The position numbers and the translations under genes were made by a program. Positions 4,170 to 34,699 of a DNA stretch of 64,000 nt are shown here, piece by piece. The stretch's first letter is position 1. Each line of letters starts with the position of its first letter. The notes under the pieces were generated by a model, which was not told the origin of the DNA, searched no databases, and saw nothing but the letters and a program-made list of their open reading frames with translations. The stretch spans positions 140,744,361 through 140,808,360 of the forward strand of contig NC_079492.1 of NCBI RefSeq assembly GCF_020520425.1. Reading direction: 5' to 3'. The stretch is from Spinacia oleracea (Eukaryota > Streptophyta > Magnoliopsida > Caryophyllales > Amaranthaceae).

Positions 4170-7100
4170 TCATACAAAATATTTCTTGAGAACATCGGTA
4201 TTCCAATGGTTCTTCAGAATTGTTCCATCTAACTGTTTCAGCATATACGTGCCTGGCCTTTTTTCGGAATGGATGATGTATGGTCCTTCCCAAGTGGCTG
4301 AGAGTTTGCCATGGATCCGTCCTTTCTGAACCGAGGCGGCGTTTCTGAGTACTAGATCACCGACTTTTAGGGGTCTGGCGTTGACTCTTCGGTTGTAATG
4401 CTTGTTGACCCTCTGCAAATAGGCTGCGTTGAGTGTCCTTGCATCGTTCCGAGCTTCGTCCAGTAGATCGAGAGCTTCGGATAGAAGTTGATTGTTGCTT
4501 TCTCCTTGGAGCCCATCATACCTGTTGTATGCCTGGATCCTCAGGCTTTCTGTTCCGATTTCCACAGGGATTACAGCTTCGGATCCGTATACAAGGTGGA
4601 ACGGTGTTTGTCCGGTAGCTTCTTTTTCAGTGGTCCGAAGGGACCATAGCGTTCCGGGTAGCTCCTCTAACCATTTGTTTTTGTCATCCTCGACTCTTTT
4701 CTTGAGTGCGTTGAGGATGAGTTTGTTAGCAGCTTCGGCTTGCCCGTTGCTTTGTGGGTGACAGACTGCTGAGTATGCTAGGTGTATGCCGAACTGTTTG
4801 CACCACTTTTGCAACGGGGTGTTGTCGAACTGTTTCCCGTGGTCGAAGACCATCAGTCTTGGTATGCCGAACCTTGTGATGATGTTCTGCCATATGAACT
4901 TGCGGACCTGAGGTTCGGTGATGGAGGAGACAGCTTCGGCTTCGATCCATTTGCTAAAATAGTCGACTCCTACAATCAACCACTTCTTCTGGTTCGTTGC
5001 TGAGGGGAAGGGACCAATGATGTCTAACCCCCACTGTGCGAATGGTAAGGGATACAGTGTTGATTGTAGGGTTTGAGCTGGTTGATGGATGGCTGGTGCG
5101 AACTTTTGGCATTTCTCGCATTTCCTTGCCATCTGCTTTGCCTCGGAGACCATAGTGGGCCACCAGTACCCAGCCCGAAGGGCTTTATGTGCTAATGTCC
5201 TACCTCCAATGTGGTTTCCGCATATCCCGAGGTGGATTTCCCTTAGGATGTAGTCAGCGTCTGTTGGACCCACACATTTTAGCAGCGGAGCAGAGAATGA
5301 TTTCCTCATGAGCTCTCCTTCGGCGCTGATGATGAACCATCTGTTGAATCTTTTCAGTTTTCTCGCTTGCAGCTTATCTTCGGGGAGTTCTCCCCTTTCT
5401 TTGTATGCAACTACTGCGTCCATCCAGCTAGGTTCGGTACGTAAGCTGCATACTGTGGTGGGTAGCAAGTCGATGCTTCTCTCTTGGTGAACTTCCACGT
5501 GGACCGACCTGTTTAGGTCGATGAGTGTTGAGCTTGCGAGTTTTGACAGTGCGTCTGCTTGCGTGTTCTGTCCTCGGGGAATGAGGATGACTTCAAAGGA
5601 TCTTAACTTTGACGTTAAGGATTTAATTTTTGCTAAATAGGCTGTCATGCTGGGCCATTTGGCCTCATACTCCCCTCGGATCTGGTTGGCTACAAGCTGG
5701 GAATCAGTTTTGAGGCGAACATGTTCGGCCTCCAGGGATAAACAAAGCTCTATCCCTGCGATTGCGGCCTCGTATTCGGCCTCGTTGTTGGTTGCTTTGA
5801 AGCCGAACTTCAATGCATACTCTATGCTTTTCCCCGTCGGGGGGATCAGTACAACTCCTGCCCCTGAGCCGTTTATTGTGGAAGATCCGTCAGTGAAGAC
5901 CTCCCAAGTGCTTTTCGTATCATCCAACATTTCCTGGTATGAGCACTCGGCCAAGAAGTCTGCCAATGCTTGTGCTTTGATTGCTGTCCTCGGCTGATAT
6001 TTGATGCCGAACTCTGATAGTTCGAAGGCCCAGGCAGCCAATCTTCCTGACCTCTCTATTTTGTCGAGTACTTTTTCGAGCGGTTGGTCAGTTAGCACTG
6101 TGATCTGGTGGGAGTCGAAGTATGGCCTCAGTTTTCGTGCAGCTACCACTACTGCATATGCGACTTTCTCGATGAGTGGGTACCGGGTTTCGGCCCCTGT
6201 GAGTGTTCGGCTGGTGAAGTAGATTGGCTGTTGCTTCTTTTCTTCTTCCCGAAGAAGCACTGCGCTGACGGTTCCAGGGCTAACTGCGACATATAGGTAC
6301 AGGGTTTCCCCCTCCTTTGGTCTGGCCAGTGTCGGCAGTTGAGCTAGGTGGGCTCTGAGTTGCTGAAAAGCTTCTTTTTGCTCCTGTTCCCATATCAGTT
6401 CGGGATCCACTTTCCTCGGGACCCCTTTTTTCTTGACTGGTTCTGCTTCTCCCCCGGGGAGGTTCTTTGGTTTCAGTGCTTTGAAAAAGGGGGCTCCCTT
6501 ATCCGAGGCCTTTGATATGAACCTTGTTAGTGCGGCTAACCTGCCGGTTAGCCTCTGCACATCTCTCTTGGTCTTCGGCTCGGGTAAATCCAATGCCGCT
6601 TGGACTTTGTCCGGGTTCGCATCAATTCCTCTTTCGCTCACCATGAATCCGAGGAACTTCCCTGACTTCACCCCGAAGACGCATTTTTTTGGGTTCAGCT
6701 TCATGCTGTATTTTCTCAGATTTCCGAAGGTCTCTGCCAAGTCTTTGACATGGTCTTCCTCCTTGATGGATTTTACGATGGAGTCATCCACGTAGACCTC
6801 CACATTCCTCCCTTTCTGGTCGGCGAAGACGTGGTCAACTAACCTCTGGTAGGTGGCTCCGGCATTTTTCAAGCCGAAAGGCATCATTTTGTAGTTGAAC
6901 ACTCCTGCGCTTGTGATGAACGCTGTCTTTGCCCTGTCATCGGGGTGCATGAATACTTGGTGGTAGCCTGAAAAGGCATCCATGAAGCTGAGCAGTGCAT
7001 GGCCGCTGGTGGAGTCAACCAGTTGATCTATCCTTGGCAGGGGATAGCAGTCTTTGGGGCAGGCTCGGTTCAGATCTGTGAAATCTACGCACATTCGCCA

Positions 7101-9923
7101 TGAGCCGTTCGCTTTCTTGACCATCACCACGTTGGCCAGCCACTTCGGATACATGCATGGTTCGATGAATCCGGCCTCTTGCAACTTTTTAACCTCCTCG
7201 GCGATGGCTTTGTTTTTCTCCGAGGAGTAATTTCTCTTTTTTTGCTTGATTGGCCGAGCTTCAGCGTTGACATCCAGCTTGTGACAAATCAGCTTCGGAT
7301 TTATCCCTGGCATATCTGCTGCTGACCATGCAAAGATGTCTTTATGATCCCTGAGTAATCGGATCAAATCGATTCGGAGCCCCGAGCTTAGGCCCTTGCC
7401 TATTCGGACGCTCCTGTCTGAATCATCTTCGAGGAAGATATCCTCCATTTCTTGATCCGGTTCGGGGGATAGGGTTTCGGGGCGAGCATCAACTTCCGCG
7501 GGAGACAAGCTGCTCGTGCTTGCTCTTCTCCTTTTTGCCTCGCTTTCCTCTCCCGTAGCTCCTTTTTCCTCCTCGGGGCCGTCCCCTAGCTTGGGCTTTC
7601 GGACAGCAGTGTGGCAGGTTCTTCTCGCCACTTCTTGATCACCTCTGATTCGTTCGGCGAATCCTGCATCCGAGACGTATATCATCAGCTGGTGGTATGT
7701 GGAGGGGACTGCTTGCATCTTGTGAATCATGGTTCTCCCCATGATTACGTTGTATACGGAGTCGCAGTCCATCACCAAGAATTCGTCCCGAAGGGTTTTT
7801 GCTGCCTGGCCTTCGCCCACTGTGACTGGCAGGGTGATCTTTCCTCGAGGGATAGCTGCGGATCCGTTGAATCCGATCAGAGGATAACTGACTTTCGTCA
7901 GTGCTTCCTCTGGTTCTTCGAGGATCAGCTGCTCGAAGCAGTTTCTGAAGATGATGTTGACGGCACTTCCTCCGTCGACTAACACTCGATGTACGTTGTG
8001 ATTGTTGAGGTCCATGGAAATGACCAAAGGATCGTCATGTTTGTACTGGACTCCGAAGCAATCATCAGCAGTGAAGGTCATGTTCGGGGGGTGTGGTTGG
8101 TTGTCTCCAACCGCGCTGAAGTTGACCCGATGGGAGAGGGCTCTTAGGTGTTTTTTGCTGGCCTGGCCAGACTTCTGTCCCCCGAACACCACTAGGATGT
8201 CATTTTTCTTGTGCCCTGTTGCTTCGTAGACCCTTTTCTGGGGTTGCTCGTGTTGTTTGCCGCTTGCGGCCTTTTCTTTTTCCTCCCTTCGGTCTAACAA
8301 GTACTGTTTCAGGTAGCCTCGGCGAACGAGGTCTTCAATGTTATCTTTCAGCGAGTTGCACTCTTCGGTATGGTGACCGAAGTCATCATGGAACTCGCAC
8401 CACTTGTTCTTGTTTCTCCGAGCTGGGTTGGACTTGAGCTTCCCCGGTAGTTTCCACTTTTCATCATTTCTGTTGAGGCTAAATATCTCTTTTCGGGGCA
8501 GAGTTAGTGGAGTGTAGTTGGTGTATTTGGGTTGAAGTTCACCCCTTCTCCCGTCTTTCTTCGGGCTCATCTCTCTAGCTCCTACTTTCTCTTTCCCTTT
8601 CCTTGAGCCGCCCTCGGGCCTGCTCTGGTTATTCTTTGTGTCTCTCGGATCTGACGATCCCTTCAATTTTGCAGCGGCCTTGTTGAACTCTTCGGTTCTG
8701 ATGAACGCATCGGCCATTTGGAGCACGTCAGCTATTTTGGAGGGGTTCTTCATTGAGAGTTCGTCACGGAACTTCCCTTCCTGGAGCGCGTGCTTCAAGG
8801 CGAAGATGGCCACGTCTGGCTGCAAGTTTGGTATGTTTGTTGATTCTTTCATGAATCTGGCCATGAATTCTCTCAGACTTTCGTCTCTTTCTTGTTGGAT
8901 TGAGGTCAGTTCTGCTGTGGTTCGCTCGGGGCGATTGTTGCTCACGAACTGTGTGCAGAATCTCTTTTTCAGCTTTTTCCAGCTCTTGATCGATCCCTTC
9001 GGCAGCGATCTAAACCACTCTCCCGCCACTCCGGTTAGCGTGGTTGGGAAGTATTTACACCAACATGCTTCGGAGTAGGGACTCAAGAACATTTGCTGTT
9101 CGTATGAGATGACATGATCCCTCGGATCTGTGATTCCGCTGTAGGTTAGGTGCGCTGGCAGTCTTACTTTCGGTATTTCTTCCATGATCAGCTCGTCCGA
9201 GAAAGGGGATGACGTAGGAGTCATGATTCTTTTCCCGAGTCTAGCCCTGATGCCTTCGTTTGCCGAGGTTCTGTGATTAGAACGCTCGGGCGTACGATGG
9301 GGGCTAGGGGTTCGATCATGCCTCCTGTCTCTTCTTCTTTCTCGGCTACTGACCTCGGGTCGTTCGCCAGACCTGCTCGACTCACCTACCCCGAGTCTCG
9401 TATGGATCGAAGGTCTTAACCTTGAATGGACCGAGGGTCTCAACCTGCTGAGCACCGAGCTTCGGATCCGAGTGTTACGGGTAGTTGATTCGCTTTGGAG
9501 AGCTGTTGGAGTAGGCGATGGTCTCGCAAACCAATCTGGTTGCTGTTGTGCCCTTTTTTGGGTGTCCCACGTGCTTTCCATCCACCTCGACGTCAAGTGT
9601 GTACCTGTCAAGGGAAGGAGTTCTCGTTCGGGTCTGGACACTTCCACACTGGGTGGCTCGTTCAGCCTTCGCCTGGTCCTCCTCTCTTCTCTGCGGTCAT
9701 TTGCCAGCCCTTGCTGCTTCTCATTGAAGAGGAAGTTTTGCATGATGGTCATGGCCGCAGTGAGCTCTTCCCTAGTTGGAATCGGAGGTCCTGCATTTGT
9801 GGCGGTCGTAGCTCTGCTTGGCTGTGACCTCGCCATCGATTGAGGGTGCCCCTCTTGGTCAGATTCTGAATCTGACCGCACCATCATATCGTCGTCTTTG
9901 TTGTTAACAACATCGTTCACCAT
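4170..9923 (-). CDS. gag-pol polyprotein of the Tat/Retand element
   Basis: One continuous frame. The open frame extends to 10100, but the primer site at 9973-9990 lies inside it, so its first 36 or so codons are LTR sequence; the likely start is the Met at 9923 (MVNDVVNN). Domains in order, numbered from 10100: gag capsid region (about 310-480) with basic linkers, a CEFH...GHH..EC zinc-knuckle-like motif (about 590), aspartic protease with VLVDGGSAVNIIF (about 740), reverse transcriptase with YVDD (about 1150), RT-linked RNase H (about 1330), a second archaeal-type RNase H with FTDGSS and NNEAEYEA (about 1450), and integrase with an HHCC-like region, GLDIIGPFP and DHGKQF. It copies element RNA into cDNA and integrates it. 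The frame looks whole. Confidence 0.93.
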   Translation of the reverse strand: MVNDVVNNKDDDMMVRSDSESDQEGHPQSMARSQPSRATTATNAGPPIPTREELTAAMTIMQNFLFNEKQQGLANDRREERRTRRRLNEPPSVEVSRPERELLPLTGTHLTSRWMESTWDTQKRAQQQPDWFARPSPTPTALQSESTTRNTRIRSSVLSRLRPSVHSRLRPSIHTRLGVGESSRSGERPEVSSRERRRDRRHDRTPSPHRTPERSNHRTSANEGIRARLGKRIMTPTSSPFSDELIMEEIPKVRLPAHLTYSGITDPRDHVISYEQQMFLSPYSEACWCKYFPTTLTGVAGEWFRSLPKGSIKSWKKLKKRFCTQFVSNNRPERTTAELTSIQQERDESLREFMARFMKESTNIPNLQPDVAIFALKHALQEGKFRDELSMKNPSKIADVLQMADAFIRTEEFNKAAAKLKGSSDPRDTKNNQSRPEGGSRKGKEKVGAREMSPKKDGRRGELQPKYTNYTPLTLPRKEIFSLNRNDEKWKLPGKLKSNPARRNKNKWCEFHDDFGHHTEECNSLKDNIEDLVRRGYLKQYLLDRREEKEKAASGKQHEQPQKRVYEATGHKKNDILVVFGGQKSGQASKKHLRALSHRVNFSAVGDNQPHPPNMTFTADDCFGVQYKHDDPLVISMDLNNHNVHRVLVDGGSAVNIIFRNCFEQLILEEPEEALTKVSYPLIGFNGSAAIPRGKITLPVTVGEGQAAKTLRDEFLVMDCDSVYNVIMGRTMIHKMQAVPSTYHQLMIYVSDAGFAERIRGDQEVARRTCHTAVRKPKLGDGPEEEKGATGEESEAKRRRASTSSLSPAEVDARPETLSPEPDQEMEDIFLEDDSDRSVRIGKGLSSGLRIDLIRLLRDHKDIFAWSAADMPGINPKLICHKLDVNAEARPIKQKKRNYSSEKNKAIAEEVKKLQEAGFIEPCMYPKWLANVVMVKKANGSWRMCVDFTDLNRACPKDCYPLPRIDQLVDSTSGHALLSFMDAFSGYHQVFMHPDDRAKTAFITSAGVFNYKMMPFGLKNAGATYQRLVDHVFADQKGRNVEVYVDDSIVKSIKEEDHVKDLAETFGNLRKYSMKLNPKKCVFGVKSGKFLGFMVSERGIDANPDKVQAALDLPEPKTKRDVQRLTGRLAALTRFISKASDKGAPFFKALKPKNLPGGEAEPVKKKGVPRKVDPELIWEQEQKEAFQQLRAHLAQLPTLARPKEGETLYLYVAVSPGTVSAVLLREEEKKQQPIYFTSRTLTGAETRYPLIEKVAYAVVVAARKLRPYFDSHQITVLTDQPLEKVLDKIERSGRLAAWAFELSEFGIKYQPRTAIKAQALADFLAECSYQEMLDDTKSTWEVFTDGSSTINGSGAGVVLIPPTGKSIEYALKFGFKATNNEAEYEAAIAGIELCLSLEAEHVRLKTDSQLVANQIRGEYEAKWPSMTAYLAKIKSLTSKLRSFEVILIPRGQNTQADALSKLASSTLIDLNRSVHVEVHQERSIDLLPTTVCSLRTEPSWMDAVVAYKERGELPEDKLQARKLKRFNRWFIISAEGELMRKSFSAPLLKCVGPTDADYILREIHLGICGNHIGGRTLAHKALRAGYWWPTMVSEAKQMARKCEKCQKFAPAIHQPAQTLQSTLYPLPFAQWGLDIIGPFPSATNQKKWLIVGVDYFSKWIEAEAVSSITEPQVRKFIWQNIITRFGIPRLMVFDHGKQFDNTPLQKWCKQFGIHLAYSAVCHPQSNGQAEAANKLILNALKKRVEDDKNKWLEELPGTLWSLRTTEKEATGQTPFHLVYGSEAVIPVEIGTESLRIQAYNRYDGLQGESNNQLLSEALDLLDEARNDARTLNAAYLQRVNKHYNRRVNARPLKVGDLVLRNAASVQKGRIHGKLSATWEGPYIIHSEKRPGTYMLKQLDGTILKNHWNTDVLKKYFV

Positions 9924-9972
9924 TTTCGCGGAAAGAGGTGATTGATGTCTTTCAAAGGCTTTGAAGTGTTCT

Positions 9973-9990
9973 TCCCCACAGACGGCGCCA
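9973..9990 (-). other. Primer binding site, tRNA-Asp type
   Basis: Read on the minus strand it is TGGCGCCGTCTGTGGGGA. The first eight bases fit the 3' end of plant tRNA-Asp (GGCGCCA) and the rest is a partial match. It starts three bases inside the LTR edge, the usual position for minus-strand priming in Tat/Athila elements. Confidence 0.85.
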
Positions 9991-9993
9991 AAT

Positions 9994-10460
9994 TGTTCCG
10001 GTGTTGTAAAGATGGAAACAATGGGCTTCGAATGAAGGCCCTTTTGTATGTGTTGAAGATCTTGCTTGTTTGAATGAGTGGAGTCCGAATTCACCTGCAC
10101 AATAGCAAAGTTACTAGCCTCGGGGGTGTTTCCGAGGAAAGCCCCTCCGATGCCTAAGTAAGAATGATGCTCGGATTCTAGAGAGAAGTTCTCTAGAAGA
10201 GTAGTCTTAAGGCGGTAAATTGGACGTACCTTGAGGTGTGAGCCTTGGCGGCCTATTTATAGTGTTTGCATAATAAATGCCCATAGGTCATTTATTGCTT
10301 TTGGGCCTTGGGCCTTGATGGATGGCTGACTAGCCATTGGTGGGTTTGATGCTGTTTGTTTAGAGCCATTGGGCTTTGGACTTAGTGGCCCAATTGAGAA
10401 TCAATTGGGAGCCCAAACAATTAATATAGCAAAGATTTCTATTAATTAATTGCCTAGCCA
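9994..10460 (-). repeat. 5' LTR of the Tat/Retand element
   Basis: The inner border is set by the adjacent primer site; on the plus strand the LTR opens with TGTTCCGGTG. The outer border ends in CA at 10419 (426 bp) or at 10460 (467 bp). It cannot be fixed because the partner LTR is outside the window and no target duplication can be compared. A TATA box sits at 10252-10264. Confidence 0.7.
10252..10264 (-). promoter_or_regulatory. TATA box in the retrotransposon LTR
   Basis: On the minus strand it reads CACTATAAATAGG, a strong plant TATA box. It lies about 260 bp upstream of the primer site, a suitable place for the U3/R border of the element's own promoter. Confidence 0.65.
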
Positions 10461-13647: not shown

Positions 13648-16406
13648 ATGGCAGCTTCATCTTCTTCCTCCCTTCCATCAGGTATTTGATCCCACTCTCT
13701 CGTCCTCATCCTCTTCCTTTACATTTACGAATTTTATTTACTTAAAAATGTCATAATTTCAGAAAATGAAGTGGAGAAGCACCCATACCAAGATGCAGAA
13801 AAAGCAGGGCCAAAGGGAGCCTTTGAAGCAAGGCAAGTGAAGTTAGGTTTTTATGTAAGAGTCGACATGCCCGGAGTTCCGCCGGACGGCGTCAAGCTTT
13901 TCAAGTACAGCGATACTCGTACGGTCACCTTCACCGGTAAAGCCCCAATTCTCTGGCTTCTCGACTCTTCCGAAAGGGTTTACGCCGGTTATGTTGTTCT
14001 TGATCGTGATCCTAAACTCATCGACATTGAATTCATTGTCAAAAATGGTTGCCTGAGGTTGTTTTTCCCTGACGCCGAGGGTGTTCTCCACTTTTTCCCT
14101 TCTAATAACCACTTTTCTCTCTCTCCTCAACCCATCATTTCTAGAGGTTTACCATCTTTAATTTTGTCACTCTTTTTCTTTCAATTTATTATTATGATTG
14201 TCATAATGGTCTAATTGATCAAATGTTGAATTTGTTCAAGGTTCATCTACATTCTGGCCTTGTCAAGACTCTTATGATGACCAAATTGACGCCCAATCTA
14301 ATGTAATTTTAGGTATATTGTTATATGTTTTGGGAGTGTAATTACTTGAGTTTGCCTAATTGATCTGGGTAACTGGGTTTCGCTAAAGTTGGGATTTGAT
14401 TTCTGTTTGTTTGAAGGCCGTGTTGACAAGGTTGTTTCCCACCCCGTCAACTGTTCGTGCTGCAAAGGCGTTAAACGAAAATCTCATCTTTCAGGTTCTT
14501 ATTTATCTATCACCAATTCACCATCTATTCATCAATGCATGTTGTTAATCTCCTTAGTTTGTTCTTAACTCTAAAACCTTATAATGTTGTATCATCGTAT
14601 TACCTCAATTTCTAAATAATTGAATTATTTTGACTTTTAACACTATTCATTTATCTTACTTTGACCTCATAATAGTGTTCCGGAATTTCATCCGCTTCAT
14701 GATCTTGTTCCTCTATTTTAGTTGAAGTAATTTGCATCTGGAGAGCTGAGTATATGTTCAATTGAGCATTGTCGAACATGATCACCAATTCACCATCATA
14801 TAATGACATAAACTACTTGTTTTTTGTTATACTACGATTCAGTTACAATATACTCCGTAGTTAGTTGATTAAATTAGTTAATATCCTCACAAGGAAAAAG
14901 GGAAAATGATCATCTGTGTAGCACAAATGGTACATGTTTCTTTATATGGAGTAGTTAGTGTTTGCTTTACGCGCTTCTTGAATTGTTGCTTGTGGGATTG
15001 ATTGCAAATTAGCTTCACATCTAAATCATAGAACAGTACATTCTCTCTTAATGCAAATCATCTATTGATCTTCTTTTTCCGCTTAACCTTTCTTGGGCAT
15101 AAAAATCACATCAAAGGGCTCGTTTGGTTGAACATAGAAATTAAAACTTCATAGGAGAAAGTTTTTTATGATAAATAGACATTCCTACTAAGTAGGAAAT
15201 GTTATTTTGTTGAACATGAGAACTTTCACTTACCTACCTAGGTAAGCAATTTCGTCCGTTTAATGGGAAGTGAAACTTCCTAGGAAGTGCAACTTCCCAT
15301 ATTTTTGTTAATCAAACATCTCACGGTCTTCCACTTCCTAGGAAGTCATGTTTCTCATGATTTTCCATGTCAACCAAACAGCAACTAAAGCTTGGTATAC
15401 TATCTATAGCAGTTTATTGAAGGAGCCATATATATGCACATTTGGACGGTGTTCCAGTGTTTCCTATATGATTCAAATCGGTATCTTTTCAAGCATTGGT
15501 AGAAAATTAATTGTTTGTTTAGTAAGATAAATCAATGTTTGAGTAGGTTCTCTAATGGTTACTACTATTGTTGGCCATGATACATTTATTCATGGTAAAG
15601 AACATTTTAGCGCGCTTAAATTGGTGTGGTTTCTTTTTTTTGTTAGTCAACTCTGCAAGCTTTTCTAACAAAACGAGTACCTTAATCTATATCCAAGATG
15701 AAGTGTGTGTAATTTTATTCGTTTGCCCTTTACGTGGTTCAAAAAAGTTCCATAAGAAAGCTTCTTCAAAGAGAAGGAGGTAAGTCCTTAGGTAATAGGG
15801 GGTTGAGAAATGCAATTGGACTTGATTTGGTTTATTTGTGACCATTGCTGTGTTATACTGTTATCTATCCCCTAGCTCCATCAATGATCAATCCATGTAC
15901 CTCGTAGTAGTCCTAATTTGGAGGTTATTTCCATTTATCCCTTCCTCTGTTGTCCTAATTTGGAGGGTAGCAACAGTTTTACTTTTGTTAAATTTCTTAA
16001 TTGACTTCTGAAGTTACTTCTTTCTTGATATATATATGCAGTTATTGAGCCTTATGAATATCGATATTCCAATCCATACTTGCTGCAAGGAATGCAAGGA
16101 GTTTGCGATAGCAAAGTGCTAGATGGGAAGACGCTGTCCATAAGGGTGGATATGCCAGGACTTAAAGAAAACAGTTCATTTGTAATGGTTAATCGAGGTA
16201 ACAAGCTTACGGCTGCCTATAGGGAAAGGTACAGAGAGTCTTGGAGTTCGATGAATTTGGGAGGGGTTGGACCAAAGGAGTACCGTTTTGATGAAGGTGG
16301 TCGGAAGTACCTTTGTTGTGTCATCCTTCTATGTGATTGCTGTGAGATTGATGGTGCAATTCAACAACTGAAAGATGGTGTCTTGAGGGTATCATTGATA
16401 AAGAAG

Positions 16407-17639: not shown

Positions 17640-20149
17640 ATGGCAGCTCCTCCTCCTTCTTCTTCCTCTCTCTCTTCCGGTTTGCATGCTTTCCATTACC
17701 ATCTTCACTCTTCTCTCAATTGTTTTCTTTCTTTTTGAAAAATCTACTTTTGTTTTTTTGGGTTTTAAATCTGAATATTGTTTAAATGTTGGTTGCAGAG
17801 GAAGAGGTGAAGCTTCATCCCTACCAGAAGAGAGGACCCAAGGGAGCTTACGAGGCAAAACAGGTAACCGGGTCGTGGAACGGCGGTAAGAAGAAAAGCT
17901 GTCGTGGTTTGTACGTTAGGGTGGATATGCCTGGTGTTCCTGACGACGGCGTTAAGATTTCAAAGTACTCTGACACCCGCACCGTCACCTTCACCGGAAA
18001 AGCACCAGTTGTGTGGGCCCACATCGATTCATCTGATAGGGTGTATGCTGGGTATGTAGTCCTTGATAGAGACCCAGCCATGGTAGATGTGGAGTGTCGG
18101 GTTAAGAATGGTAGCCTCCATTTGTTCTTCCCTTGCTCCGATGGCTCCCTTCATTTTCTCTCTCCTAACAATTCTTCCATCCCTCCTCAACAAGAATATG
18201 ATGATGATACTGGTTTGCTTCTTTCTTTCTTTTTTGTCCTTTTCTTTTTTTGTTTTTTTTAGTTGCATTTTTAATTAATTATTCTAATATTTATTATGCA
18301 GTGGAATTAATTGAGATAGGGGAGCTCTTTATAACCCACATTGAACATGCTCCTGAGGAACCTTCTGGTAATTCCGTCCCACTTCATTTCTAACATTAAA
18401 CTAGTTGTTTTAGGTCTTGTTTGGTTCATTATAAGTAAAGGAAAGTTAGAGAATTAAAGGAACGGAACGTAACGGAAAAGATTTTATTTTTGTATGTTTG
18501 GTCTAAGGTTTAAGGGAAGGAAATGATGGGAAGAGAAAGGAAATGTAAATGACAATTTTTTATTTTCTCTTATCTCTCAAATTCCTCCAATTTTGGGAGG
18601 AAACGCAATTTGGATTATACACCCGGGTGCACAGTGTTCATGGTGCACCCGTTGAACATTTATTGAAAATCTAATGAACATTGATAATGATTTCAATGTA
18701 CATGTACTAGTGAAATAATTTAAACTATATGTTATATGGATTTGAGCTATATGTTCATTAGCTATATGTTCTTTGGGTATGAATAATACGAAGTATGTTC
18801 TTTGTGTTTGAACTATATGTTCTTTTAAAAACAGGGTGCACAATATTGTGCACTCGGGTGTATAAATCATATTTTGGGAGGAAAGGAAACTGAAATTTTA
18901 TAAAGGATATTTCCTCTTTCCCATCAAAATTCATGTCATTTATCTAACCAAACATCAAAACATAATAAAAATCATTTTCTTTCCTTTCTTTTTCTCTAAA
19001 ATCCGCTCAACCAAACAAAGCCTTAATTGCATCGGTTAACCTTATGGGCAGATGCCTCGATTTGTTTTAATTGCATCTGTTAACAACCCTCAATCTTTTG
19101 CTTTCTGTTTTGTGTGTGTGTGTGTGTGTGTGGGATGTTTTTACCCCTACCAAACTCCATGGATGTTGCACCTAATTCCTAAAGCAAATTAATCAAACAC
19201 AATCATGAACTTTAATGTATTATTGGATTCCCCCCTATACTTGATCAAATGATAATTGCAACACAAGAGAGCTTAGCAATCAACGTTTTAGACCACTCAC
19301 CCATTTCAGTTTAGCACTGACCATTGAGCACAAGAGATTGGAGATGAAAGGGTGTCAGACTGAGATATTAATTAAGGAGAAAGATGGGAACTTGTAGAGT
19401 TGTGGACTGTGGAGGCCTCATGGGTAGCCAGAAAAATCAAGTCAATGTTCGAAATCTAACTAAAGGTCCTAGCCAATAACCTACTTCCTATATGCCAAGA
19501 ACTAAAGGCCCTTGTTTGCCACTTTTGTTTCAAAAGATCATTTCTCACAAAAGTAACCACATAAAAAGTCACTCTTAACATATTTCCCTTAAATATATAA
19601 CATTTTATCTAATTTCTTATAATCCTAATTGCTATGTGCATATTTGAATTAATAAATGTTGGGTTGAAAAAGGTGTTACATATTATAGGGATAAAATTGA
19701 GGGGAGGAAGACCAGAGCACATCAACCCGTATCTTCTAAGCGGGGTTAGAGGAGTGTATGAACACAAGATAGTTAGTATTGGCCACACTCAACATCTTAT
19801 TTATGTGCGATTAGATGTTCCAATGACAAACTACAAATTGTTTTGCCTGACTGAGAATGCGGATAGGCGCATCACCTTCGCCGTTGATGCTGCTGAGAAG
19901 GACTCGACGTTCGATGAGGGTCTACGAGGTTACATTGGTTCATTGGTTACTAAATGTGAATGCTGCCAGTATGAGATTGTTAAGTATGATATTACAGATG
20001 GTGTCATTCGTTTTTTAGCTAGCAAGAGTTCTTCTGTTGACCTGCGTTCCAACATTTATTGCTACGAACCTCCTTCTAGACCCGGTCAACCCCCCAAGCG
20101 TAAAGCTTTTGGTAACCTCAGAGTCAGCTTCGAGAAGCCTCGGCGTTGA
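17640..20149 (+). CDS. HSP20-like double-domain protein, copy 2
   Basis: Four exons fit: 17640-17679, 17799-18212, 18302-18367 and 19689-20149, again all in phase 1, giving 326 residues. Domain 1 has HPYQKRGPKGAYEAKQ, LYVRVDMPGVPDDGVK, TVTFTGKAP and VYAGYVVLDRDP, very close to copy 1. Domain 2 has INPYLLSGVRGVYEHK and a weaker LIYVRLDVP. The conserved first domain, shared exon phases and head-to-tail order show a tandem duplication. The second domain and the linker have diverged: copy 1's separate CSCC exon has no counterpart found here, while a CECC motif lies in the last exon. Likely a chaperone-like protein of unknown client. The last intron holds two nested MITEs. Confidence 0.82.
18413..19022. 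mobile_element. Tourist-like MITE, host of a nested element
   Basis: The ends are GGTCTTGTTTGGTTCA and the inverse of GGCTTTGTTTGGTTGA, flanked by a TTA duplication (18410-18412 and 19023-19025), the PIF/Harbinger hallmark. It lies in the last intron of HSP20-like copy 2 and is split by a second element at about 18615-18865. Confidence 0.8.
18615..18865. mobile_element. MITE nested inside the Tourist-like MITE
   Basis: It has 18-bp terminal inverted repeats, TTATACACCCGGGTGCAC and a complement with one mismatch. The interior repeats ATATGTTC words. Sequence on both sides (TTTTGGGAGGAAA) belongs to the outer element. The family is not assigned because the target duplication is unclear. Confidence 0.78.
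19110..19132. repeat. (TG)n microsatellite
   Basis: About eleven TG units in the last intron of HSP20-like copy 2. Confidence 0.9.
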
Positions 20150-26395: not shown

Positions 26396-27899
26396 CGGAT
26401 ATTTCATGAAATGCCCCCGAGTTTTGCCATAATTCACCAAACGCCCATCAAGTTTCAATAATTCATAAAATACCCCTCACAATTCGTACAAATACCCAAT
26501 ATACCCTTACTAATAACGGACCGTTAGTCTGCCGTTAGCCAAGTTTCCAATTCACCCAAATGCCCCTATTCTGAAACTTATTTCACCAAATGCCCCTATT
26601 GTGAAACTTATTTCACCAAATGCCCCAAACTTAAATATAGCTATTTTGATGTTTCAGCGACTAGTTTTTGTGTTTGAAAGGTAGCTGTTGGTCATGGTTG
26701 ACTATAAAAGCCCCTTTGCTGAATGGTTCTTGTAAGTTAGATGTTATTTTGATTTGCTTTTCTAATTTCATAAGATTTTTGTCATGAGTTTTCTTTCAAA
26801 ATCATCATCCACACCCAATGAGTCCACATATATTAGAGTACCTACCAAATTTTGTTATTGTGGTAGGAAATTTGTCATTCGAAACTCTGATACAACACTC
26901 AATCCACAAAGGTTGTACTACAAGTGTGATCCTTGAAACAATCTGAGATGGTACAAGGGAGTAGTTGAGCAAGAAAACAAGGGGCAACAACACGAAGGAC
27001 AATGCGGGGGAAGCTTAGACGAAGGAGAAAGTATTGAAAACAGGCGAAACAGTAAGATGCAAGAAAAATTGAAGCAAATGAAGAAGAAGCTAAAACAACA
27101 ACAAAAAAGTAGTCAAAGTTGTAATACAAATGGGGATATTGATGTTTGTAATTTTATTGTTTGTAATCATGAAGTAAACACAAGTAATGAGAAACAAATT
27201 CACATTTCATAAATAATTGATGTTGCATAATCTGCACAAAATACCAAACTGGGAAGCATTCCTGTTTTTAGCTTCACTTACAAAACATCTTTGCACCAAC
27301 TACATTTAATGCTATATATTTTCTAATCAATGAATATGTGCAAGATCAAAACAAATGTGCAAAAACTACCCCAAAAAGCATTAGCAGTTATCCAGAAGAG
27401 CTTGTGGAACACCACTTCAACCTCTATTCCTACCACAATAACAAAATTTGTTAGGTACCCTAATATATGTGGACTCATTGGGTGTGGAAGATGATTTTGA
27501 AAGAAAACTCATGACACAAATCTTATGAAATTAGCAAAGTAAAGTAAAATAACATCTAAAATACAAGAACCATTCAGCAAAGGGGTTTTTATAGCCAACC
27601 ATGACCAAGAACCACTTTTCAAACACAAAAACTAGCCGTCGGAACATCAGAATAGCTATATTTAAATTTGGGGCATTTGGTGAAATAAGTTTCCTAATAG
27701 AGGCATTTGGTGAAATAAGTTTTAGAATAGGGGCATTTGGGTGAATTGGAACTTGGCTAACGGCGAACTAACAGCCCGTTATTAGTAAGGGTATGTTGGG
27801 TATTTGTACGAATTGTGAGGGGTATTTTATGAATTATTGAAACTTGATGGGCGTTTGGTGAATTATGGCAAAACTCGAGGGCATTTCACGAAATTCCCG
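26396..27899. mobile_element. Mutator-like element with 474-bp inverted repeats and a GRF zinc-finger ORF
   Basis: Inverted repeats of about 474 bp (26396-26869 and 27427-27899) start with CGGATATTTCATGAAATGCC and CGGGAATTTCGTGAAATGCC respectively. A perfect 9-bp duplication, ATAATTAAA, flanks the element at 26387-26395 and 27900-27908. Long inverted repeats plus a 9-bp duplication define the Mutator superfamily. The 1504-bp element has no transposase, so it is non-autonomous. Each arm holds a 28-29-bp internal duplication (ACTTATTTCACCAAATGCCC units). The exact target duplication points to fairly recent insertion. The single ORF begins inside the left arm. Confidence 0.92.
26784..27212 (+). 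pseudogene. GRF-type zinc-finger ORF carried by the Mutator-like element, one internal stop
   Basis: One frame of 143 codons runs from ATG 26784 to TAA 27210-27212 with a TGA at 26934-26936. The N-terminus is Ser/Thr-rich (residues 1-20), then CYCGRKFVIRNSDTTLNPQR, LYYKCDP and LRWYKG (about 26-58), matching the GRF zinc-finger pattern (C-x-C-G, S-x-T-x-x-N-P-x-R, Y-x-C, W). A Lys/Gln-rich coiled coil (about 95-115) follows. The stop falls just after the third Cys, near where GRF proteins carry their fourth zinc ligand, so a Cys codon may have been lost. The start codon and the first two Cys codons lie in the inverted repeat, so the right arm carries the same 5' part reversed. GRF fingers bind single-stranded nucleic acid in other proteins; the role here is unknown. 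Confidence 0.72.
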
Positions 27900-30965: not shown

Positions 30966-33479
30966 TTACCTCCTATATCGGTCCCTGCAAGAAGACAAAA
31001 AAATAAACAGTTCAGCACCAACAATGACTTCAGATCACAAATATATTTGCTCGAAGGTCACACCAATTCTAAAATTATAGAGCTGTCAAAAATCGACCCG
31101 ACCCGAAAACCGACCCGAACCCGACCCGAAAATACTGGGTCGTGAACAAGATTTTGTGACCCGTAACCCGATTTTATCCGAACCCGAACAACCCGAAAAG
31201 GAATGGGTCAAAACCCGACCGAACCCGTTTTAGACCCGACCGATTGAAAATCATTGTATTTATAGTAATAAATGAGATTATGAGAAAATTTAAGCATAAA
31301 AGACACGTAGTTTTTACTATTGTTCTGTGTAATATGATTTTAATTTGAATTATACGCCATTTTATGATTGAATTTGACAAAATATAAACTTTCGTAGGAA
31401 AATTTGTTAACTTGTGCCAATATTTTGTATATTTTTCACCTAAATTAATGAAAATATAATGCGCGTTTTAAAATCTCTCAACCCGTTGGGTCGACCCGAA
31501 CCCGAAAGTTCTGGGTCTTGAACAAGCATTTGTAAACCCGAACCCGAAAGTGACCGACCCGATTCAACCCGAACCCGAAAGTAAATTTTTACAACCCGAC
31601 CCGACCGACCCGTTTGACAGGTCTATAAAATTATGTTGATGACTTAACTTAATGATGAGTGGTTCTAAGAGTTCTAAGTAAGCAATATTCTACACACAAA
31701 TCTGACCTATGTGTAATTAGTACAATCCACATAGGTTCAAACAGAGTAAAATACATACTCCATACTTATATATAGAACAATCTGTGATTAAAACTAAAAG
31801 GAATGGATTAGCAAGAAGATAAGAAAGTTGTTCAAGTGACAAGCATGAACAATGTATATGAGTATATCATAGCAAATGGCTCATGAAAACAATGTTGGTT
31901 GCATTGCTCCAATTACTCCGTAGAACTGTTACTCTCATACTCAAATGACCATCATTTTCCCCATAGACAACACTGCAGGTACAGATACAGTCTCTAGTAG
32001 AGTAGTTTCTACAGCCTACCAATAAGATAACCAAACAAATCATAAAATACAACTCTTTACGCTACTAGTATGCCGAGCAATTTAATCCCTTAAGATAACC
32101 TATGACATGGAGAGTGGAATAGGCAAGGTCTCATAACCCAAAAAAAGAAGTATATCGTTATGACTTTGAATGGCATAACCGAGTATCGTACTGAGTACTC
32201 GAATTTGCCAACCCCATGCATGTCTTCAACTCTTCCTATCTAAAACCCAACAAACAGGTGAAGGGACACTGTCCTTCTACCCTAAAGATTATCATCCTTG
32301 AAACCACTTTACCAATCACATTTTGATACTCGCATCTCACTGCCAAGTGCTTGAAGAAATTATCCACTAACACTATAAAAGTAATGAGTTGCAATTGTCT
32401 CCAATTCATGAGTATCATCAGAGTATGCCAGCAAAGAACACTCACATCCTTCAATAGCTCAACTACCCGCAGAGATGCAAATTCAAAGTAAGTCCAACAC
32501 CCCCTACGCGGCCACACCCTTTCATCCCTCACCCCAAAAACAAGTCACAACAGAAGAGCAACAACAATAAAATATTATGAAATAGCTTAAATAAGGTCAA
32601 AAGCATGGTGCTTGATTCAACCATTAAGCTAGAACACAGATACACAGTATGAATGAGATAACAAATGCTAACATTCTATAAAGATTCACTTTTATAAGAG
32701 CCATAACAGCATTATGAATACAGTTACCTTGGAATTGGATAGTGCCCATGACTGCCTCTATTGCGCGATAACAAAGCTCGCTCTCTCTCCTTCTCAGCCT
32801 TCTCTCTCTTCAATCTCTCTTCCCTAAGCTCCTCCACTGTCTTAGGCGTCGTCTTCTTCATCTTCGTCTTCTCACCACTGTCTACATTTCCCTTCCTTTT
32901 CTTCTGATCTCTCTCTTCGTCCACCTCCTTTCCAGGTCTCATTGTATACCAGGGAGCCTTCACCCCTTTCCCAGCCACACCATAACCAAGCCTATACACC
33001 TCATCCTCAGGCCCCACCACCCTCACTTCCTCCTTCTTCTTCTTCCTCTTTTTCCCTTCGTCTTCGTCTTCTTCTTTCTTCTTCCCTACCACCTCTACTG
33101 GATCAAATATTTTTATCCCGTCAAACAAGTTAATATGCCTCGATTCCGACTCCAATTTCGATTCAATTACGGATTCTGATGCTTCCAATTTCGGTTCAAC
33201 TGCTGATTTTGATTCAACGACATAATGAGATGCTACCGATTTGGATTTAACTATTGATTTTGATTCAACAACCGAAATAGATGCTTCCGAAGTCGTCTTA
33301 TTCTTGTTCTTCAAAATGTTGAGTCTCAATTCGGAGTCGCGCTTGCGAGATTGGTCGCGCTTGAGCTGTTCTTCTCTGGCCGCATCTTCCTCGTCTTTTC
33401 GAACTTTCTCGCGGTTGTCAAAGTTGTATACATTCCACTTCTTCTGTGGGAGAATGTTCAGACCTCCATGACCGCCCAT
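30966..33479 (-). CDS. LENG1-like protein with CIR N-terminal domain
   Basis: Exon 1 (33479-32728) codes 250 residues. A 19-nt last exon (30984-30966) behind a good polypyrimidine-AG acceptor adds RDRYRR and the stop, giving 256 residues. The N-terminus MGGHGGLNILPQKKWNVYN and NREKVRKDEE is the CIR_N signature shared by leukocyte receptor cluster member 1 homologs and CBF1-interacting corepressors. The middle (about 65-120) has imperfect VESKS repeats, followed by Lys/Glu-rich stretches and WYTMRPGKE (about 175). The family is nuclear and linked to splicing-related complexes; its plant role is not defined. The 1.7-kb intron holds an hAT MITE. A probable Helitron begins 131 bp upstream of the ATG. 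The small last exon is the least certain part. Confidence 0.85.
31078..31625. mobile_element. hAT-type non-autonomous element in LENG1 intron
   Basis: The ends are TAGAGCTGTCAAA and the inverse of TAGACCTGTCAAA, flanked by a perfect 8-bp duplication TAAAATTA (31070-31077 and 31626-31633), the hAT hallmark. Both subterminal zones are packed with GACCCGAACCCG repeats, probable transposase-binding sites. It is 548 bp long with no coding capacity. Confidence 0.9.
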
Positions 33480-34699
33480 TTTTGTTGACCAGAACTCAGA
33501 TGAACATCAAAAAGGGTTTCCGCGGGAAGTTAGGGTTTCGCTTCTAATTGGATTGTTTGGGAATTTTCGTTAATCGCAAAATTTACAAGGGAGGTACCCA
33601 AGTCCCCAAATCTCTATTATATAAGCCAACTCCTGAGTATTTTTTTGTAAATTAACTTTTTGTGTCCCCAAATTAAATGACGAAAATGCCCTCAGATATC
33701 TCTCATCCTATTTTGGTGTATGCGTTTGCTGAACCTTTCTCCTCCTCCCACTTTTCTCTCTCCTCACCTTTCCCTCACCAAACAACACTGCATTTCTAGG
33801 GTTAGACTTCTCCCGCAAAGATGGTATTCAATCAACTCTATCCTCGATCGCCTCGACGGCGGCGTCTCCCTCAACAGCCGCGACGGAAATGGGTTTTAGG
33901 GTTTCTAAGGAAATTTTTTCATTGAAGGAGAGAGATTCAAATTGAAACTTCCGTAAAAAATAATCGAATAGGGTTTAGGAAAGGGGATTCGATTATAGAT
34001 AATAACGGATTGAAGGTCGATAATGGAGGAGATAGAAATCGATGGTGGGTGATGGCTCCTTGGAGGCGGCGGCAATGGCGGCTCACCTTCCATTTCATCC
34101 TTTCAGGTTTAATTTCAAGCTTCCCTTTCCACTCTTTCCATTTCAGTGATTGATTTGTAATCTGGTTTTAGGGTTTTACTTCAATTCAATTCAAATTCTT
34201 GCAAAATTTTCAACTTCTTGCAGAATTTTTAATCGCTGGATTGTTTTGGTGAAATAAATTCTGAAATTGGAGATTAAATATATTTCGAAAGTAGGGTTTT
34301 AATTTTTTAGGGGAAATCTAAATTAGGGATTTAGAAAAGGGTTGAATGATCGATTACAAGATGTCTAGATTTTGGGGGTGGTTTTGTGTTCGGCGGCATA
34401 ATTAACGGCAACTCAGCTAGGGTTTCCGAGTCGGGTTATTGCCCCGTTGCTTCAATTACTGGTGCACTTAGGGTTTCCTGATTTCATTTGTAAACTTCAC
34501 CTACCTCTATTACCCTTCCATTCTTAATTTAATTTTTAATTTGATTTCAATTTTCTGATTGATTAATTCAGAAAAAGGGTGATTCAGATTAATTCAACCC
34601 TGTTTTTTTGTCGACCTGAAGGTTTCTCATCATTCCATGATCTTTTTCTCTCATTCTCGAATTACTGTGATTTTTATTAACTTTGTTGTTGTTGTACAG

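Follow-up and report, generated by a model that had tools for sequence, protein, structure and literature searches.

The window (the whole 64,000-nucleotide stretch of Spinacia oleracea DNA that we analysed) contains a 1504-bp Mutator-like element (MULE), flanked by a perfect 9-bp target-site duplication and ending in terminal inverted repeat (TIR) arms of 474 and 473 nt that are ~93% alike in alignment (Table 1). This anatomy agrees with an earlier description made from the letters of the window alone (the sequence-only reading), and the identification as a MULE is borne out by the 9-bp duplications, by the TIRs (474 nt at 93% identity in the window copy, with a mean of 92% over 40 copies) and by the MULE-type transposase of autonomous relatives. 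The element contains an ORF whose start had been placed inside the left arm: its ATG and its Cys codons 24 and 26 do fall within that arm. The further suggestion that the arm combines a promoter-like region with 5' coding sequence holds on both sides of the element, as each arm has a TATAAA 81 nt ahead of an ATG. The ORF had also been described as interrupted by a single TGA; the TGA is there, but it is not the sole defect, as the frame is also shifted towards the ORF's 3' end. When the stop is passed over, the window ORF continues in frame to 27212.

Several other open frames are found in the window. A 2028-aa frame on the minus strand (4170-10256) reads by eye like an LTR retrotransposon polyprotein, which we take to be of Ty3 type and intact. 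Three plus-strand frames of 158-178 aa follow (13690-14214, 17786-18262, and 19613-20149), the first two of which have YVRVDMPGVP and KYSDTRTVTFTGKAP motifs in common and, by eye, presumably belong to a tandem small-heat-shock-like family, the third being more distant. About 5 kb from the element, a 260-aa minus-strand frame (32724-33506) starts in the manner of what we assume to be a LENG1/CIR1-type nuclear protein. No Rfam family reached its gathering score over window positions 1-64000.

Table 1. The Mutator-like element and its parts, in window coordinates
Feature	Position	Strand	Remarks
Non-autonomous Mutator-like element, 1504 bp	26396..27899	+	40 full-length copies; 9-bp duplications
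Target-site duplication, left, ATAATTAAA	26387..26395	.	perfect 9 bp
Target-site duplication, right, ATAATTAAA	27900..27908	.	perfect 9 bp
Left TIR arm, 474 nt	26396..26869	+	matches small-gene end of two-gene relatives
Right TIR arm, 473 nt	27427..27899	-	also matches small-gene end (TATA box, ATG, and ~29 codons covered)
TATAAA, 81 nt ahead of ATG	26703..26708	+	putative promoter element
Second-gene relic: ATG and 50 codons up to the fixed stop	26784..26936	+	presumed zinc-ligand codons 24 and 26 in the arm
In-frame stop (TGA)	26934..26936	+	40/40 copies; invariant Cys codon in 8 aligned stop-free relatives
Relic: remaining finger and Lys/Gln-rich helix region	26937..27108	+	
Relic: hydrophobic C-terminal tail, frame-shifted in this copy	27109..27177	+	reads VVKVVIQMGILMFVILLFVIMK in the relatives' frame
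Transposase-gene scrap, 12 codons, FHKLFWITANAF	27374..27409	-	match to the relatives' transposase
Mirror ATG in right arm, reading inward	27510..27512	-	
Mirror TATAAA in right arm, 81 nt ahead of mirror ATG	27588..27593	-	

A recently amplified family

A DNA-level search of the 894-Mb assembly (242 contigs, with the window on contig 6) with the element gave 2492 first-look candidates; the 40 that were scored include the window copy. All 40 scored copies are full-length, so the genome holds at least 40, and the other 39 are 95-98% identical to the window copy. Row-by-row reading found a perfect 9-bp duplication in 36 of the 40; in L038 the match is 8/9, the flanks of L017 are a poly-A run in which a duplication cannot be judged, and L003 and L015 have no target-site duplication. 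The two flanks of L003 are inverted copies of each other over ~15 nt, as would follow from a rearrangement or from insertion into a palindrome. The smallest pairwise difference among the 40 copies is 0.13% and the median pair is 2% apart, and the family has therefore been amplified recently. The existence of copies only 0.13% apart, together with 9-bp duplications in nearly all of them, suggests mobilization in trans, with the transposase supplied by relatives.

Two-gene relatives and their second protein

A protein search with the stop masked (150 scored of 1533 candidates) retrieved stop-free relatives that are 79-83% identical to the window ORF protein, and a second search with one of these (150 scored of 1358) gave at least 40 stop-free matches by count. 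Intact siblings, which the sequence-only reading had named as the key question, thus exist in number, with 181 distinct stop-free matches among the 199 entered. Their left ends align with the window element starting at its base 1, L071 with a gap, and have the ATG at the corresponding place, and past this shared end they extend into longer elements; the relic in the window, for its part, aligns with the relatives' left side end to end, over element positions 1-956. The TATAAA stands 81 nt ahead of the ATG in L071, L072, and L078 also, and 51 nt ahead of it in the complete element described below. Downstream of the small gene, on the opposite strand, the relatives carry pieces of a transposase, and in those of L072 and L079 the MULE domain PF10551 scores 41.9 bits (cut-off 27.6), the SWIM domain 34.5 bits (cut-off 19.6), and DBD_Tnp_Mut 22.4 bits, under its cut-off of 25.

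A complete two-gene element on C6 measures 5072 bp end to end, with a perfect duplication TATAAATAA and a TIR identical over ~115 bp. Its second gene (L084) encodes 121 aa, and its convergent transposase gene is split into three long open pieces that are presumably exons, the longest of 750 aa. The right ends of E72, E74, and E77 are absent from the stretches of sequence examined, and genome searches identified no intact element matching the window family at 95% or more. The scrap of transposase gene left in the window element (protein match, E 0.017; DNA match of the same stretch to a transposase-bearing relative, E 5e-11) lies on the minus strand and ties the element directly to the two-gene layout. 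Our main reading, with a probability of about 0.88, is that the 1504-bp element is non-autonomous and arose by internal deletion from a two-gene Mutator-like element of the MuDR type.

The association between the two genes was counted in two ways. Comparing 40 stop-free small ORFs with the best 37 of 150 transposase matches, we found a convergent transposase within 20 kb of 28 small ORFs, 24 of them within ~2 kb, and no nearby transposase among those 37 for the remaining 12. The wider count set the 78 transposase matches (of 150) with an open frame of at least 700 aa against 199 small-gene rows, after weaker rows had been dropped. Here a convergent small gene lies at 1.66-1.95 kb in 70/78 long frames, and 65 of these 70 small genes are stop-free; in five the small gene is 3.9-12.3 kb away, three have none among the 199 rows entered, and no non-convergent small gene occurs within 5 kb of any of the 78 among those rows. 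A convergent second gene, as in two-gene elements of the MuDR type, is thus a feature of the relatives (within 3 kb in 70/78), and the window copy has only relics of both genes. In three further families of transposase (73-75% identity in the MULE region), the one member inspected in each has the second gene at the predicted site, with 45-50% identity over the matched part; judged by such comparisons, the second gene is recognizable across several families of one genome at ~50% identity.

Substitution rates indicate strong purifying selection on the second gene in full-length relatives. Between the gene of the complete element (L084) and L071, L072, L077, and L078, dN/dS is 0.080-0.094 at dS 0.65-0.80 (Fisher p against L084, 2.5e-14 for L072 and 4e-16 for L071); comparisons across families, whose synonymous sites are saturated or nearly so, give 0.13-0.29. 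Close pairs give higher values (0.27-0.42, and 0.71 for L072-L077, with only 4 changes), as expected for young or decaying copies.

In the second protein, of ~121-134 aa, a CxC...CxxC GRF-like finger is combined with a Lys/Gln-rich helix and, at the C terminus, a hydrophobic tail. GRF zinc fingers have the spacing C-x-C ... C ... C-x5-W, and the Cys/Trp spacing of the second protein fits this motif in 8/8 aligned stop-free proteins, all of which have C24, C26, C48, C51, and W56, as well as C57. Residue 51, five residues before the invariant Trp, is the presumed fourth zinc ligand alongside Cys 24, 26, and 48. The earlier description of the finger as GRF-like is consistent with this invariant spacing, at a Pfam score below the cut-off: against the 25.9 bits set for PF06839, the window ORF scores 13.2 and the protein of the complete element 12.6. 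At E of 1 or less, Pfam's two GRF models match 8/8 (best 0.0032) and 7/8 (PF06839, best 8.9e-4) proteins, and the unrelated models CHD5 (5/8) and Orf78 (5/8) score in a similar range. Assignment to GRF by Pfam was therefore rejected, every score with known bits being below the cut-off, and we use the label "GRF-like" for these reasons.

Searching solved structures by sequence returned no convincing relative (best E 0.19, to unrelated chains). An AlphaFold model of the second protein has a mean pLDDT of 54.5, with the finger region unfolded and below 50, and a confident C-terminal helix from residue 76 to 120. In 12/12 stop-free proteins, a 19-residue hydrophobic stretch (mean hydropathy 2.1-2.8) is followed by just two C-terminal residues, and the protein is probably tail-anchored, i.e., inserted into a membrane. 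Its finger may bind nucleic acid or a partner protein. The gene, in the mudrB position of intact elements, would be a transposition helper. Its product might hold DNA ends or transposase at the membrane, a role that we regard as less likely than not.

Other GRF-coding and second-gene-like sequences were seen during these searches. At least 148 matches to GRF are above the Pfam cut-off (150 of 485 candidates scored; e.g., C1:24990979-24991116, plus strand), many of them in near-identical stop-free ORFs of 144-164 aa that form another repeated GRF-coding family. Their positions were compared by eye with those of MULE matches, of which at least 150 came from 1960 candidates. Among the matches listed, there are four convergent pairs within 13 kb (C4:63237285/63240264, C5:49038801/49045334, C1:101317367/101329059, and C6:8321999/8334387) and one non-convergent pair (C6:146472239/146481368), too few to conclude from. 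A further many-copy second-gene-like family, with examples at C1:53606903-53607256 (minus strand) and C3:757775-758128 (plus strand), has 132-aa stop-free frames that are ~48-50% identical to the L088 protein.

Arms, interior, and reading frame of the derivative family

In the relatives with both ends visible, the TIR measures ~115 bp (the complete element), 122 bp (E71), and 279 bp (E78), the last two being internally deleted, and in all three it stops short of the ATG. Both arms of the window family, by comparison, match the second-gene end up to nucleotide 474, including 29 codons. Since the TIR of the three relatives does not reach the ORF, the start of the ORF came to lie in the TIR when the small-gene end formed both arms, and the matches of the arms indicate that the transposase-side end has been replaced in the window family. 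The second gene's core promoter and start would be present in each arm, which could allow both sense and antisense RNA of that part to be made.

The non-autonomous copies might then be natural silencers of the second gene, their inward promoters giving rise to antisense or hairpin RNA and to small RNAs that would switch off the two-gene relatives, as in the case of Mu killer. The TATA box, ATG, and 29 codons present in both arms, and the high mean identity between arms over the 40 copies, would suit such a role. Mu killer of maize, as described in PMC3440606, has both TIRs from one element end, that of mudrA, together with an inverted part of mudrA, and like the window family it is internally deleted and carries inverted copies of a gene start. 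Mu killer is, however, a single locus that doubles the transposase end, whereas the window family has at least 40 mobile copies, doubles the small-gene end, and is a putative silencer. Over the shared part, moreover, identity between the arms and the stop-free relatives examined is no higher than 73-87%, which counts against a strong effect in trans, and we consider silencing of the second gene by these copies unlikely. The layout with the ORF start in the arm is real but secondary; of more interest is that a second gene is conserved where mudrB would lie.

The interior of the element bears on another explanation, in which the small element is a Pack-MULE that picked up part of a host GRF gene. 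Gene capture is frequent in MULEs, ORFs with GRF fingers above the Pfam cut-off occur elsewhere in the genome, and a GRF-domain gene, GLU-U7 in the rice Pack-MULE TNR12/MuDR, is interpreted in PMC3503983 as a captured fragment; among the papers listed in the searches made, this one joins GRF and MULE terms. Yet 70/78 long transposase frames, from several diverged families, have the same convergent gene beside them, and the relic in the window can be aligned with two-gene elements throughout positions 1-956, which makes capture by the small element very improbable; the elements' ancestor may have captured the gene long ago. The rice element resembles the relatives in having a GRF-domain gene within a MuDR-type element, but, in that account, as a captured fragment in one element, whereas here we find a standing second gene in several transposase-bearing families. 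The window element cannot be classed as a Pack-MULE, as what lies between its arms comes from the two genes of the element itself.

As a derivative of a two-gene element, the family has kept the second gene only in broken form. Codon 51 is a stop in 40/40 copies and codon 57 a further stop in 29/40, both codons being an invariant cysteine in the eight aligned stop-free relatives, and the identical stop in every copy means that the ORF is dead in the derivative family. The sequence-only reading had a non-autonomous transposon making this protein; the family does not make it, and the decay of all copies that the same reading had named as telling against itself is what we find in every copy examined (40/40). 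A 33-base pattern around the stop is found at 291 places with at most 2 mismatches, compared with 0 for a reversed control, and a hand count of the 100 pattern places listed gave 65 with the stop and 35 with a cysteine codon. A sister derivative family (L056, L060) has a different stop at the same codon. On the derivative stem we count 5 synonymous and 6 non-synonymous changes plus 1 stop (p 0.063, no clear departure from neutrality), the sister-family branch has 0, 6, and 1, and polymorphism in the ORF among the 40 copies amounts to 11 synonymous, 28 non-synonymous, and 1 stop (pN/pS 0.61), changes too few to decide firmly on selection in the derivative family. That the 50-aa ORF up to the stop is itself a functional peptide is scarcely credible: the ATG and first 50 codons are open in 40/40 copies at the codons checked, but the arm part is retained through TIR function anyway, the peptide ends before the fourth of the presumed zinc ligands, and the stem, sister-branch, and polymorphism counts just given argue against it.

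Comparison with known Mutator systems

In maize MuDR, the two genes are convergent and their promoters lie in the TIRs or immediately interior to them, according to PMC3310237 and PMC3440606. The relatives resemble MuDR, with its mudrA and mudrB, in having a transposase gene and a smaller convergent gene between TIRs and in their 9-bp duplications. The product of mudrB, MURB, is described in PMC3440606 as a protein of unknown function, and we liken the second protein to it by layout; neither a GRF-like finger nor a hydrophobic tail is mentioned for MURB in the relevant passages of PMC3440606 and PMC3310237.

Abermu type II elements of barley and other plants combine a MuDR-related transposase with an opposite-strand ORFR lying between that gene and the far TIR; as presented in PMC9168764, ORFR has Ka/Ks < 1 and is given no known function, and the ORFRs of distant plants have no similarity among themselves or to MURB. 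The relatives likewise have a transposase and a constrained second ORF on the opposite strand, but, unlike ORFR in that account, the second protein here is recognizable across families that are ~50% identical. VANDAL/Hiun elements of Arabidopsis (VANB, VANC) are portrayed as MULEs with accessory genes, one of which encodes an anti-silencing factor (PMC6446971; see also PMC5735166 and PMC10398659). In carrying accessory genes, as far as these descriptions go, VANDAL/Hiun elements are like the relatives. VANC proteins are not known to be related to GRF fingers.

In our reading, the relatives are two-gene MULEs with a recognizable, conserved, GRF-like, and probably tail-anchored second protein, and the window element, though uncommon in its arm layout, is an ordinary derivative. 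We suggest, tentatively, that the GRF-like, tail-anchored protein is the product of a standing second gene of several MuDR-type families and a functional counterpart of MURB, which would hold the transposition complex or free DNA ends at a membrane (e.g., the nuclear envelope), and that the derivatives with two small-gene ends would be a naturally amplified, Mu killer-like brake on that gene.

The role of the second gene in MuDR-type elements is an old question, and the second ORFs described earlier are, in the account of PMC9168764, unrecognizable between distant plants. Recognizability across families, purifying selection, a domain layout, and hundreds of copies with and without stops together make the second gene described here testable. 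The "captured GRF genes" of plant MULEs may be genes of the elements themselves, and the rice case is worth checking for a second-gene relic.
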